DNA from: Halolamina sp. CBA1230
Lineage (GTDB): Archaea; Halobacteriota; Halobacteria; Halobacteriales; Haloferacaceae
DNA length: 64,000 nt
Direction: 5' to 3'
Assembly (NCBI RefSeq): GCF_002025255.2
Contig: NZ_CP054587.1
Coordinates: 1,798,001-1,862,000, forward strand
Made by a program: the position numbers and the translations under genes. The notes beneath the pieces were generated by a model. It was not told where the DNA came from. It did not search any database and was given only the letters and a program-made list of their open reading frames with translations. Of the stretch, positions 3,060 to 62,929 are shown one piece after another. Numbering within the stretch: the first letter of the stretch is position 1; each line of letters opens with the position of its first letter.

Positions 3060-3638
3060 ATGTTACTCACCGTCTCCGGCCCGCCGGGCAGCGGGAAGAG
3101 CACGAACGCCGAACTTCTCGCCGACCGTTTCGACCTCGACCACATCTCCGGAGGGGACATCTTCCGCGAACTGGCCGACGAGCGCGGCTACACCCCCGTC
3201 GAGTTCAACGAACTCGCCGAGGAGGAAGAACAGATCGACAAGGACCTCGACCGACGGCTGCGCACCATCGCGGGCACGCAGGACGACGTGCTGCTGGAGT
3301 CCCGGCTCGCGGGCTGGCTCGCCGCGGAACACGCGGATCTGCGGTTCTGGTTGGACGCCCCGCTGGACGTGCGCGCCGAGCGCATCGCCGAGCGCGAGGC
3401 GAAGACCGTCGCAGAGGCCCGTGCGACCACCGAACGCCGCGAGCAGAGCGAGGCCAAGCGCTACGCCGACCTCTACGACATCGACATCGACGATCTCACG
3501 ATCTACGACGCGGTGTTCAACACCGCACGCTGGGGCGAGACGACCGTCCCGGACCTGCTCACCGCCGCCGTCGAGCGGTACGATCCCGAACAGGACGAGG
3601 GGAAACAGCCGGTCGAGGGCGTCCGCTACGAGTTCTGA
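3060..3638 (+). CDS. cmk: Cytidylate kinase, archaeal type
   Basis: Phosphorylates CMP/dCMP with ATP. The 192-aa protein begins [20 protein letters not shown] with Walker A at residues 7-15, then [17 protein letters not shown], which matches the archaeal Cmk subfamily (short compared with bacterial Cmk). The lid and Arg-rich segment [23 protein letters not shown] follows near residue 105. truB starts two bases after its stop. This cmk-truB pair is a conserved archaeal arrangement, often within ribosomal-protein neighbourhoods. Confidence 0.95.
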
Positions 3639-58924: not shown

Positions 58925-59674
58925 ATGACCGACGAGGAGCCCGAGGACAGCACTTCTACTGACGACGTAGACCCGGCATTCGCGACGACGAAAATCGCCA
59001 AAGCAGTCGCAGACGCACAGGCGAATGCACTCGAAAAACAACTCTCTCCCATCGTCGAGCTCATCGCGAAACACCAGCGACAGAGAATAGCGCAAACGAT
59101 GTCACCCATCATCGAAATGCAGCAAAAACAACTCCGTCGCTCGATGAAGCCGGTGCTCGACGCACACCGCCTCGGGCTGCACGACATGATGAACCCGGGG
59201 CTGTCTGGCGTGATGCAGGCATTAGTAGAGGCTCAACGACAGCCACTGAACGACCTCGCTGCTACCCTCTCACAGCTCCCGGAACTCGAACCAGAACTCG
59301 CCTCGACAACGGCTACAGTGGCGTCGGCGACGGCAACGCCATCAACCTCGAAACGACCTCACCACGACACTACGTGGGACCCAGACACCACCCCGACACA
59401 CCCCACGTCTAAAGCCCGAACCCAGGGGATTGACCCGGTTGACGCTTTCAGCGCCTCACTAATCGCCTATACTTCTGTCCCGAACTATTCCGAACTTGAT
59501 GAGCGTGAGCAGCAGGCTATCGCCTTCGTCATCGGTGGGGTGCTCACTTTCGGCGTCGGGTTCCTTTTGCTTGAACCTGTGACAGCAACGATGGTTGGTC
59601 TAGGTGGTGGGAGAGCAGCATCGATATTGGAGGCTGGACGGGTTGGTCGCCAAGACCGACTCACCGACGACTAA
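58925..59674 (+). CDS. Helical protein with C-terminal membrane segment
   Basis: A 249-aa protein. The N-terminal half is a long charged helical region (KQLSPIVELIAKHQRQRIAQ, MQQKQLRRSMKPVLDAHRLG), then a Thr/Pro-rich linker, and a hydrophobic segment (FVIGGVLTFGVGFLLL) near the end. An ATG at 58925 follows a TATA-like ATTTAAAAAT. Function unknown. Confidence 0.55.
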   Translation: MTDEEPEDSTSTDDVDPAFATTKIAKAVADAQANALEKQLSPIVELIAKHQRQRIAQTMSPIIEMQQKQLRRSMKPVLDAHRLGLHDMMNPGLSGVMQALVEAQRQPLNDLAATLSQLPELEPELASTTATVASATATPSTSKRPHHDTTWDPDTTPTHPTSKARTQGIDPVDAFSASLIAYTSVPNYSELDEREQQAIAFVIGGVLTFGVGFLLLEPVTATMVGLGGGRAASILEAGRVGRQDRLTDD

Positions 59675-60120
59675 CCCACATAGCTGAATCTTCTCACACC
59701 CTCGTCAATCACCCGCATACAAATTCGTATCATCCCCCAATCCTTGGGACGAATACGGGCGGAATCGACGCACTGAGACTAAGGCAGGTTCAACGATTAG
59801 CCGTCGAAACCCACGAGATCCCTCTCAGAAAACGATATATGAAAAACGCATACCGTCTTGTACAGCAATCTGAGCGCTAACTGACCCGAACAGCACGCGA
59901 AACCCACCAGTCTACCTTTTCTAAGCGACTAAGAAATGTTCGTGAGAATGGTAGATTATACGAACTTGTGTATGCCAACTATTCACAGGGGGTCAAACAC
60001 CGGTGAATCTCACACGATCAGGCACCGAAACCCGTCAACAACATCGTATAGACGATGGCGACGATGGAGACGTGACGACGACGAACAGCACCGCAGTTAG
60101 GTATCGAGGAACGGAAAAGG

Positions 60121-60151
60121 TCCCGAGAACCACTCGGGAACGCGTCGCACC
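60121..60151. repeat. AACCA-loop hairpin with CGTCGCACC box, copy 1
   Basis: Stem TCCCGAG (60121-60127), loop AACCA, stem 60133-60139, then CGTCGCACC at 60143-60151. Confidence 0.65.
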
Positions 60152-60229
60152 CGGGACACCATCGTCCCTTACCCCACAGTAATGCCTCCGCGTACTTAAG
60201 CACACGGGAGTGAATTAAACCCATCACTA

Positions 60230-60247
60230 ATGAACAAGTTTGTTCAT
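60230..60247. repeat. 18-bp palindrome
   Basis: ATGAACAA (60230-60237), centre GT, TTGTTCAT (60240-60247), a perfect operator-like palindrome between the first two AACCA-loop hairpins. Confidence 0.7.
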
Positions 60248-60269
60248 CACTCCACAAATCGTGAAAAGT

Positions 60270-60304
60270 CGAGGGAACCACCCTCGGACACGTCGCACCA
60301 AACA
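60270..60304. repeat. AACCA-loop hairpin with CGTCGCACC box, copy 2
   Basis: Stem CGAGGG (60270-60275), loop AACCA, stem 60281-60286, then CGTCGCACCAAACA at 60291-60304, of which 14 bases recur in copy 3. The stem differs from copy 1 at most positions yet still pairs. Confidence 0.65.
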
Positions 60305-60468
60305 ACACCCAACGGGTGTCACGACAATATCTGCGCTCGCGACGCATAAAACATTCGAACGCACACACCGCAGAGAACCCTCTGCCGCCGCCGCTGACGA
60401 CCGCACCGAACCGCACCGCACCGCAGCTAGGAATCGAGACCCGAGACTGACTGATGGGGGTCGAAACA

Positions 60469-60620
60469 CCCTCGGTCAGCAAAACCGCAAGACTGCGTCG
60501 GGATAAATTAGAGTGACCGAGGTGACTGAGGGTAAATCCGAAATTGTAGAGTTTATGAGAAAATAGTTATCGCTCTCACAAAATGAAGAAAATTGCGTTT
60601 ACCCTCGGTCACCTCGGTCA
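60469..60620. other. Candidate replication origin with inverted iterons
   Basis: TGACCGAGGTGACTGAGGGT at 60514-60533, continuing AAA, is mirrored at 60598-60620 with one mismatch in 23 bases, so each arm has two TGACYGAGG units. A fifth unit, CCCTCGGTCA, lies at 60469-60478. The 61-bp centre (60537-60597) is AT-rich. It lies 125 bp upstream of the SF3 helicase gene. This is the classic iteron, unwinding-region, initiator layout. Confidence 0.65.
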
Positions 60621-60700
60621 GGGGTGCTTTTCTTCGCTGCTCATTTCATTTGCCAAATCCTTAAACGTATGTCTCCAGTATGAATGAGTAACGACGCGCC

Positions 60701-60743
60701 CCCGACAAACCATCGGGACTCGGTCCGCGCGTCGCACCAAACA
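60701..60743. repeat. AACCA-loop hairpin with CGTCGCACC box, copy 3, at the helicase start
   Basis: Stem CCCGA (60701-60705), loop CAAACCA, stem 60713-60717, then CGTCGCACCAAACA at 60730-60743, two bases before the helicase ATG. It may be a regulatory leader. Confidence 0.65.
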
Positions 60744-60745
60744 GT

Positions 60746-62929
60746 ATGTCCGAAACACCCACCGGGGACAGTGATACGTCTCCAACGACAGACGAACAGC
60801 AATCAACTAACGCAGGCGGTAGCGGTATCGTCGGGTCGGAAATTATCGACGACGACGTCGAGACCGACCCCGACGAGGTCGATGCGGAATTCGGCGGAGT
60901 CACCGACCCCTTCACCGACACCGAAGACGACGACTCCACCGACGACTCCGGCAGTCGTGGCGAGGAAGACAGCGAACTCGTCGAAGCCATCGAGGATATC
61001 ATCGACAGCGACGGTCCGAAAGAAGCCGGGTCGATAGCGTTCCGAATCAACCGACGAAACCTAGATGTTGAGGATGAACGGATTCTGGAAGTTATCGAAT
61101 CCGAGTTCAAGCGAGACGACCACGGTCGCGTCAGCGAGCGGAAGAACGGGATGGACCGCGCGGTCGAGGATAGCGGGAACGCCGGTATTCGGTCGTGGGA
61201 AGACCTGAAGAGTGACTTGTCGGATGCGGACCCGAAGGCTGCGCGGAAGATGGTCGCGGACAAGATGGATCACGAGTTCGACTTCATTCATGTCAAGAAC
61301 GAGGAACGGGAGATGCGTGATTTCCGTGCGTACAACCCGAATGAGGGCGTGTACGTGTGGGATGGTGAGGCGTTTGCGAATCGCATGATGGATCACCATC
61401 TCGACGGGTTCGCGTCAACGACGGATATGAATGAGGTGGTGGCGAAGTTGAAGCTGCGGAACGAGGTCGCGCTGGGCGAGGTGAACAATCCTGATGGGGT
61501 GAAGGTCGCGGTCGAGAATGGCGTGCTCGACGTCGAAGAGCGCACGCTCGAACCGCACAGCCCGGAGTTCCTGTTCACGAGAAAGCTGAACGCGGAGTGG
61601 CAACCGGACGTGGACACGTCCGAAGTTCGCGAGTTCATTCGCGACATCACCGACGGTGAGTCTGATGCGAAAGTGCTGGAGGAGATGTTCGGGGACACGC
61701 TGTCGCCGGACTACAAGCGTGATTGGTTCGGACTGATTTACGGTGATGGGGCGAATGGGAAGTCGGTCGCGTTGAACTGTCTTGAAGCCGTTCTCGGGGA
61801 GAACAACACGTCGAACGAGTCGCTGCAGGGTATCGCTGAAGGACGATGGGCGGCGGCGCAACTGATTGGCGGGTACGGCATGCTGGCGAACATCGACCCG
61901 GACATCAGCGCGAAGAAAATCACCGATGATTCGATGCTGAAGTCGCTGACGGGCGGGGATTCCGTGCCAGCGGAGTACAAGGGTATCGACAAGTTCGCGG
62001 CGACGAACACGGCGAAAATGCTGTTCGCAGCGAACAAGGCGCCGATGTTCTCGGGTGACGGTGAGAACCTTGAACGGCGCTTGAAGCCGCTGCACCTGCC
62101 GTACATCTACCGCGACGAGGACGATATGGACGAGGCTGATGAGGCAGACCCGTACATCAAGGAGCGAGACTACACCATCGAGCAGCGGTTGACGACCGAC
62201 GAGAATCGCGCTGCGTGGCTGTCGGTGATGGTTGATTCGTGGCACCGACTGGAGGAGGATGGCTGGTCGTATGAGCAGTCGCAGCAGGAGCTGTGGGACC
62301 AGTATCAGGCTGAGGCAGACACTATCTGGTCGTTCCTGACGGAGTGTGTGGAGTCGAGTTACGGGACGCGGTTCGACGACGATACGCCGGTGCACCTGAC
62401 GGTGGATGAGCTGCATCAGATGTGTGCTGACTATCATCGTGAGCGTGGGGAGACGTTGGAGATGTCGGCGGCGCAGTTCGCGCGCCAGATCAACAAGATG
62501 GGCGTGCATGAGATGATTAGTTTTGAGTCGCGGAAGACGGGGCAGAAGCGTTCGCGGAAGTGGCTGCACCCGACCGAGACAGGGTTCCAGCACGCGACTC
62601 GCGACACCGTGCAGCGGTTTGTCGCTGAGTGCGATGAGATTGATGTTCCGGCGCGCGAAGACGACGGCGACAGCGGCGGTGAAGGCGGGTCGTCAGACCC
62701 CGAAAATGAGTCGCTGTCGCGGGTGGAGCAGCTGTACAGCGAGATAGAGAGTTGGGAGGGTGAGGATGCTGTGCTGGAGGCGACCCCGGCGAAGTTGCTG
62801 GCGCACACGGACATCGATTGGGCGGATGCGGCGGAGCTGCAGGGTGCGCTGACGGTGTTGGCGGAGCGAGATCGAGTCGAGCAGGGAGATGATGATGTGT
62901 ACCGCCCAGCAGGGGGTGATGGCGAATGA
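60746..62929 (+). CDS. Phage/plasmid SF3 helicase, P4/D5 primase C-terminal type
   Basis: A 727-aa replicative helicase. The first 90 residues are disordered and acidic, and 150-300 holds the D5_N-like helical domain. The SF3 ATPase has Walker A GDGANGKS (333-340), Walker B-like ANIDPD (381-386), sensor LFAANKAP (426-433) and Arg pair NLERRLKPLH (441-450). A C-terminal wHTH-like region follows. No primase catalytic motif was found at the N-terminus, so it is probably helicase only. Confidence 0.85.
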   Translation: MSETPTGDSDTSPTTDEQQSTNAGGSGIVGSEIIDDDVETDPDEVDAEFGGVTDPFTDTEDDDSTDDSGSRGEEDSELVEAIEDIIDSDGPKEAGSIAFRINRRNLDVEDERILEVIESEFKRDDHGRVSERKNGMDRAVEDSGNAGIRSWEDLKSDLSDADPKAARKMVADKMDHEFDFIHVKNEEREMRDFRAYNPNEGVYVWDGEAFANRMMDHHLDGFASTTDMNEVVAKLKLRNEVALGEVNNPDGVKVAVENGVLDVEERTLEPHSPEFLFTRKLNAEWQPDVDTSEVREFIRDITDGESDAKVLEEMFGDTLSPDYKRDWFGLIYGDGANGKSVALNCLEAVLGENNTSNESLQGIAEGRWAAAQLIGGYGMLANIDPDISAKKITDDSMLKSLTGGDSVPAEYKGIDKFAATNTAKMLFAANKAPMFSGDGENLERRLKPLHLPYIYRDEDDMDEADEADPYIKERDYTIEQRLTTDENRAAWLSVMVDSWHRLEEDGWSYEQSQQELWDQYQAEADTIWSFLTECVESSYGTRFDDDTPVHLTVDELHQMCADYHRERGETLEMSAAQFARQINKMGVHEMISFESRKTGQKRSRKWLHPTETGFQHATRDTVQRFVAECDEIDVPAREDDGDSGGEGGSSDPENESLSRVEQLYSEIESWEGEDAVLEATPAKLLAHTDIDWADAAELQGALTVLAERDRVEQGDDDVYRPAGGDGE

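Follow-up and report, generated by a model that had tools for sequence, protein, structure and literature searches.

The window analysed here is a 64,000-nucleotide stretch of the Halolamina sp. CBA1230 genome. It carries a gene for a 727-residue primase-helicase of the P4/D5 type (D5_N and DUF5906 domains), and upstream of this gene lie three copies of a hairpin followed by a short shared sequence, the box. Neighbouring genes encode a tyrosine integrase, a spike-like protein (27.6% to one encoded on plasmid NC_019285 of Haloferax lucentense, which we take to be the pleolipovirus-related pHK2) and an ATPase (25% to the His2 ATPase). The PHROG families of these neighbouring genes are common to the loci L033 and L054, where the VP3-like assignment comes from protein size and apparent membrane segments. 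VP3-like, spike and ATPase genes, as expected of a Pleolipoviridae-related provirus, are all accounted for, and we infer that the window holds an integrated pleolipovirus-related element with a D5-type replication module. The gene and the three copies are:

Copy 1: stem TCCCGAG (60121-60127), AACCA loop (60128-60132), stem CTCGGGA (60133-60139); box 60143-60151
Copy 2: stem CGAGGG (60270-60275), AACCA loop (60276-60280), stem CCCTCG (60281-60286); box 60291-60299
Copy 3: stem CCCGA (60701-60705), CAAACCA loop (60706-60712), stem TCGGG (60713-60717); box 60730-60738
60746..62929, plus strand: P4/D5-type primase-helicase, the gene proposed as controlled

All three hairpins, with loops ending in AACCA, and their boxes were recovered where the earlier note had placed them, and the same 9-mer, CGTCGCACC, forms the box in each. 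The distance from hairpin to box, previously given as 4-13 bases, is 3, 4 and 12 bases for copies 1, 2 and 3 on recount. The box does extend to the same 14 bases in copies 2 and 3, as had been claimed: the 14-mer CGTCGCACCAAACA occurs in the 3.47-Mb genome only at these two places, and its end in copy 3 lies two bases 5' of the helicase ATG (60746), again in agreement with the earlier reading. By itself the 9-mer is not rare (4 occurrences in the window vs 2.9 expected). When we scanned for any shared 5-base loop end combined with any shared 9-mer behind hairpins, this region gave a family of three; a family of even two appeared in 0/300 dinucleotide shuffles and in 0/158 other 750-base tiles of the window. 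Since no shuffle produced even two members, the AACCA-loop and box family is real and far beyond chance. Additional hairpins are present behind boxes 1 and 2; these had been overlooked, as had two features described below, copy 3's outer stem and the signals on the minus strand at copy 1. An Rfam 15 search of positions 59000-62000 returned no family at its gathering threshold, with four sub-threshold chance matches only.

Helicase orthologues were searched for in haloarchaeal genomes (five families completely, and 391 genomes drawn evenly from the class) and were found in G012 (55% identity, locus L033), G381 (39-40%, L042) and G494 (36%, L067). With the protein and alignment queries used, phage, plasmid, viral-contig and GTDB collections yielded no close relative. 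Against phages and plasmids, tblastn of the helicase gave only distant D5 relatives (<=34%), DNA-level searches of phage and plasmid records with the region or its relatives gave no meaningful match, and the copy 2 DNA pattern was absent from the viral contigs. The layout is the same in the window, L033, L042 and L067 (4/4 elements): copy 1, a short spacer, copy 2, iterons round an AT-rich stretch, a promoter, copy 3 and the ATG. Because the four elements form two related pairs, they do not count as four independent tests; the sequence features, their conservation and their co-variation are direct observations in all four. The stems vary freely, differing even among the copies within one element. 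In L033 all three copies have an AGCCA loop and the box CGTCGCGTCC. Copies 1, 2 and 3 have the loops CACCA, AACCA and TAACCA in L042 (boxes TGTTGTGACACG, ATGTGGCATG and TGTTGTGGCACG) and TACCA, AACCA and TAACCA in L067 (boxes GTCGTTGTGGCAC, ATGTGGCAC and GTCGTTGTGGCAC). As loop and box are common to the copies within an element and are altered jointly between elements, they read as a code that an element's copies have in common. Upstream of other D5-type genes we saw no comparable hairpin-plus-box family. An apparent case at L020 was discarded as a 97-base tandem adjoining an N, likely an assembly artefact.

Copy 3 and the promoter before it occupy the following positions:

60653..60666, plus strand: BRE/TATA of the predicted helicase promoter P3, CCAAATCCTTAAAC; implied start 60689-60691
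60691..60743, plus strand: copy 3, predicted helicase mRNA leader; outer stem 60691-60699/60727-60734, hairpin 60700-60717, loop CAAACCA, box 60727-60738

In the alignment, the BRE/TATA block (CCAAA, two bases, CTT) is invariant in all four elements. At a TATA-to-start distance of 27 (computed for the window and L042, by alignment for L033 and L067), the implied starts fall on the A of AACGACG, AAGCGACG, AAGCAACA and AAGCAACG in the window, L033, L042 and L067 (the order kept for all four-element lists below), which coincides with the first bases of the outer stem. This stem is made of the leader's 5' bases and the 5' part of the box, and is in the predicted fold of all four leaders. It covaries, with both sides changed between elements (ACGACGCGC/GCGCGTCG, GCGACGC/GCGTCGC, GCAACA/TGTTGT and GCAACGA/TCGTTGT), and the ATG follows the end of the box after 7, 8, 6 and 7 bases. 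These observations support copy 3 as a structured 5' UTR of the helicase with its own conserved promoter. Of the two roles suggested in the earlier note, an RNA control device is supported by this evidence (structured leader, conserved promoter, covarying stems, four elements), and a site for an element-encoded protein is less well supported. Among haloarchaea, a structured leader counts as atypical: in Haloferax volcanii, 72% of protein-coding transcripts are leaderless (PMC4983044). A peptide-coding leader was rejected, the upstream frames of the window and L033 being offset by an indel; no short reading frame is conserved across the four leaders.

Copy 1 has a different set of signals, all on the minus strand:

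60195..60200, minus strand: CTTAAG, TATA-like, a putative promoter element for the antisense RNA; the 5' hairpin follows after 26 bases
60112..60170, minus strand: copy 1, predicted antisense RNA gene of ~58 nt, read leftward from ~60170 to ~60112; layout found in four elements
60153..60168, minus strand: 5' hairpin of the predicted antisense RNA, GGGAC/GTCCC (GGACAC/GTGTCC in relatives)
60141..60151, minus strand: anti-box, predicted to form a 12-bp helix with the copy 3 box (11 Watson-Crick pairs and one terminal G.U)
60121..60139, minus strand: hairpin of the predicted antisense RNA; its TGGTT loop complements AACCA in the loops of copies 2 and 3
60115..60118, minus strand: U4 tract with a C behind it, adjoining the hairpin; likely terminates the antisense RNA

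In none of the four elements (0/4) is copy 1 preceded by a forward TATA-like hexamer at a suitable distance. On the minus strand, such a hexamer lies to the right of the second hairpin, 23-26 bases away, in 4/4, and a leftward transcript would therefore begin at that hairpin. In L033, TTTATA (3632-3637) implies a start at 3607, with the hairpin end at 3608; in L042, TTTAAG (907-912) implies 882 vs a hairpin end at 881; and L067 has CTTAAG (898-903) at the equivalent place. The CTTAAG of the window and L067 is a weak TATA (2 mismatches to TTTAAA), and a second minus-strand candidate at 60214 of the window would give an RNA 20 bases longer. The antisense loops are TGGTT, TGGCT, TGGTG and TGGTA, and in 4/4 elements the loop hairpin is directly followed by U3-4 and then C (ends CCTTTTCC, CCCTTTTCT, CACTTTTCC and CACTTTCC); the intergenic terminator motif mapped in Haloferax volcanii is likewise a run of T and then C (PMC7237163). 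Unconstrained folds of the predicted antisense RNA favour other pairings in 3/4 elements, so that an alternative conformer is possible. A covariance search with a model of this gene layout scored 66-76 bits in the four known elements only; elsewhere among 391 haloarchaeal genomes the best matches reached at most 26 bits, a chance-like level, and those inspected lacked copy 2 or 3. One of them, the intergenic-looking GGAAAAGCGTCCGGGTACACCGCCCGGACGTAGCGCGTCGCGCCCCGGACACC at about 1500-1572 of L077 (G349:C1:1223316-1223387), scored 26 bits for its resemblance to copy 1; the stretch inspected holds neither copy 2 nor copy 3, and the likeness may be chance.

The strand on which each copy would act as RNA can also be judged from its wobble pairs: a G.U pair keeps a stem in the RNA of one strand only, the other strand having A.C instead. 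Within stems, the wobble of copy 1 is in the minus-strand RNA (1/1); those of copies 2 and 3 are all in the plus-strand RNA (6/6, three in each), two of those in copy 3 belonging to the outer stem of L042 and L067 and probably reflecting one inherited change. All seven (7/7) thus lie on the strand predicted by an antisense model, a small number drawn from related sequences that are not independent. The earlier note had treated the three copies as equivalent sites on one strand, which probably does not hold for copy 1. Because of its minus-strand TATA-like box, its U tract, the strand-specific wobbles and the missing forward TATA, copy 1 is most likely an antisense RNA gene with copies 2 and 3 as its targets.

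Allowing G.U pairs, the longest helix between each antisense RNA and its own copy 3 would be 12, 11, 12 and 13 bp. Non-cognate helices are mostly of 7 bp or less across the two clades (maximum 10) and reach up to 13 bp within a clade. Shuffled antisense sequences attained the cognate length in 39, 19, 32 and 8 cases of 1000, and because 8-39/1000 shuffles match it with G.U allowed, helix length alone is modest evidence in each element. The constant position by the AUG, the joint match of the loops and the strand-specific signals add to it. In L042, the box differences between copy 1 and copies 2 and 3 (A/G, C/T) retain pairing as G.U.

Copy 2 looks like a second leader:

60214..60219, plus strand: ATTAAA, likely TATA of promoter P2; implied start about 60243
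60231..60246, unstranded: dyad TGAACAAGTTTGTTCA over the predicted copy 2 start, with perfect 8-bp arms at 60230-60247
60265..60319, plus strand: copy 2; hairpin 60270-60286 with loop AACCA, box 60291-60304, then hairpin ACACCC/GGGTGT

Copies 2 and 3 are alike in sequence up to the position of the start codon, which copy 2 does not have. Equivalents of the P2 TATA are TATAAA at L033 3632 and CTTAAA at L042 907; L067 has none within one mismatch. An equivalent dyad, TGTACAAGTCTGTACA, lies at L033 3649-3666, likewise over the predicted copy 2 start, and was not seen in L042 or L067; the window holds no second copy of its own dyad. By its position, the dyad is likely a repressor operator. Pairing of the copy 2 box is also possible with a GCCACA lying downstream of it in L042 and L067. 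It is possible that copy 2 acts as a decoy, removing antisense RNA upon departure of the repressor, or that it is a second target; this is the least certain part of our reading.

A set of iterons lies between copies 2 and 3:

60470..60620, unstranded: five 9-bp iterons of the CCTCGGTCA type, one imperfect, round an AT-rich stretch

Their layout (one direct, two inverted, the AT-rich stretch, two direct) is the same in L033 (3850-4001) and partly so in L042 (1115-1265) and L067 (1156-1300). The iteron sequence differs per element (CCTCGGTCA, CCTCCGACA, CCCCCGATA and CCCAATA-like), and some copies are imperfect. Iterons and AT-rich stretch together are likely the replication origin for the D5-type primase-helicase. 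At L043 (1010-1320, genome G376), TTGACCA iterons of both orientations, placed round an AT-rich stretch, stand before another D5-type gene, which has no hairpin/box copies; judged from this arrangement, L043 and the four elements appear to have the origin plan in common and not the RNA module.

Altogether, we consider that the repeats are probably a module by which an antisense RNA controls the element's replication helicase. Copy 1 would be transcribed leftwards into a short RNA with a 5' hairpin, a single-stranded anti-box and a UGGU-loop hairpin ending at the U tract. In the target, the 5' bases of the leader and the box would close the outer stem round a hairpin that displays its ACCA (or GCCA) loop. 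Loop-loop pairing would bring the antisense RNA into first contact with the copy 3 leader, and the RNA would then invade the box, giving a helix of 11-13 bp that ends 6-8 bases before the AUG and that would block initiation or invite cleavage. Little helicase would be made, and the provirus would therefore stay quiet or at low copy number. RNA from the copy 2 promoter would soak up the antisense RNA or serve as a second target. We infer the existence of these RNAs, their pairing in the cell, its negative effect and the role of copy 2. A more specific version is offered tentatively, as possible rather than probable: a trans-pairing antisense RNA derived from a duplicated leader, combined with a repressor-regulated decoy, would make a silencer, target and sponge switch for lysogeny or copy number, with a loop-plus-box code re-set in each element and possibly setting incompatibility groups.

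The main alternative is that a protein of the element, either the helicase itself or a small regulator, binds loop and box in RNA of all three plus-strand copies, copy 3 serving translational autoregulation and copies 1 and 2 titration. RNA hairpins bound by proteins typically combine a constant loop and a box close by with a stem whose sequence is free, co-evolution of loop and box with a protein is conceivable, and the wobbles do place copies 2 and 3 on the plus strand. However, this explanation leaves the minus-strand TATA-like box, U tract and wobble of copy 1 and its missing forward promoter unaccounted for, and the box seems to change faster than expected for the binding site of a protein that is 40-55% identical; we regard it as unlikely. 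Still less probable, in our judgement, is a device on one strand in which copies 1 and 2 are attenuators (hairpin, box and second hairpin in exclusive pairings) within a long helicase leader and copy 3 is the final switch. Three mutually exclusive GTCCC/GGGAC segments in copy 1 and the second hairpins after the box in copies 1 and 2 would fit such a scheme, but no plus-strand U tract follows these hairpins, for which reason we also rejected them as plus-strand terminators, and copy 1 has no forward promoter. Nor is a leader starting at copy 1 needed, since a conserved promoter of the helicase itself lies immediately ahead of copy 3.

It is very improbable that the copies are instead DNA-level sites, recognised as single-stranded or duplex DNA in replication, such as HUH nick sites or initiator binding sites. 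The copies do flank the probable iteron origin, and a hairpin with a downstream box resembles an HUH nick site. Against this, neither an HUH nor a Rep gene turned up in the set of proteins scanned, the likely sites of the initiator are the separate iterons, the G.U-type pairs point to RNA, and copy 3 falls exactly within a predicted 5' UTR.

Antisense-RNA control of replication is classic in bacterial plasmids; for an archaeal replicon we found no described case in the open-access literature searched. Temperate elements also use short immunity RNAs, the CI RNA of P4 and the c4 RNA of P1/P7, which act through two short pairings to silence an operon of replication or antirepressor genes, and the P4 gene under CI control is a primase-helicase, like the proposed target in the provirus. 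CI and c4 RNAs arise by processing of the same strand and find their pairing partners, inverted copies, in the leader of their own operon; unlike copy 1, they have no promoter on the opposite strand. In design, the closest working analogue appears to be par of pAD1 (RNA I / RNA II, of the Fst family of type I toxin-antitoxin systems), of which the provirus module is not a member. In par, opposite transcripts run across direct repeats and are complementary at the translation start; first contact is made through the loop of a terminator hairpin, the 5' end of the mRNA is held in a helix, and the repeats vary between systems, giving specificity (PMC7472228). The likeness would lie, at the level of sequence, in boxes that correspond to the direct repeats, in the minus-strand signals of copy 1 and in a box 6-8 bases from the AUG. 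The differences are that the par mRNA makes a short, hydrophobic toxic peptide whereas the proposed target encodes a 727-residue replication helicase, that par transcripts converge on a shared terminator whereas the predicted antisense gene lies ~550 bases upstream and points away, and that the provirus has a third, leader-like copy.

The predicted pair also resembles CopA/CopT of R1 and Inc RNA/repZ of IncI plasmids, where an antisense RNA acts on the mRNA leader of a replication protein with loop contact first (PMC12361487); here too the target would be the leader of a replication-initiator mRNA, copy 3 lying directly upstream of the D5-type primase-helicase. Those bacterial antisense RNAs are fully complementary to their targets and come from the same stretch of DNA (PMC12361487), whereas the RNA of the archaeal provirus would come from a diverged, separate copy ~550 bases from copy 3 and pair by loop and box only. 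Antisense control does exist in haloarchaeal viruses, since it is proven for the Tant RNA of the Halobacterium phage phiH, which acts on an early lytic transcript near ribosome-binding sites (Stolt and Zillig 1993, in PMC4284463). Like Tant, the predicted RNA would act in a haloarchaeal viral element. Unlike the predicted RNA, Tant is cis-encoded, overlapping at T1, and its phage is head-tailed; neither repeat copies nor a decoy are described for it.

If the proposed mechanism is correct, the module would be an RNA switch for the induction or copy number of pleolipovirus-type proviruses, would provide a mechanism by which related elements are incompatible, and would stand as an archaeal parallel, reached by convergence, to the designs of pAD1 par and CopA. 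Haloarchaeal genetics might also gain from it a tunable part for controlling translation.

L032 (7361-14556; G000:C1:1862361-1869556), L033 and L054 have the look of pleolipovirus-related proviruses, with a P4/D5-type primase-helicase and a tyrosine integrase; a 2023 survey of the Pleolipoviridae reports one member with a P4-like primase, and the word antisense is absent from its text (PMC10599561). A 55,136-base contig (G465:C4, L072) contains three D5 gene matches of identical score, 16,352-16,355 bases apart, and plasmid NZ_CP119995.1 of Halomarina sp. PSR21, equal to it in length, also has three D5 places; this triplication is probably a multimer or an assembly concatemer.
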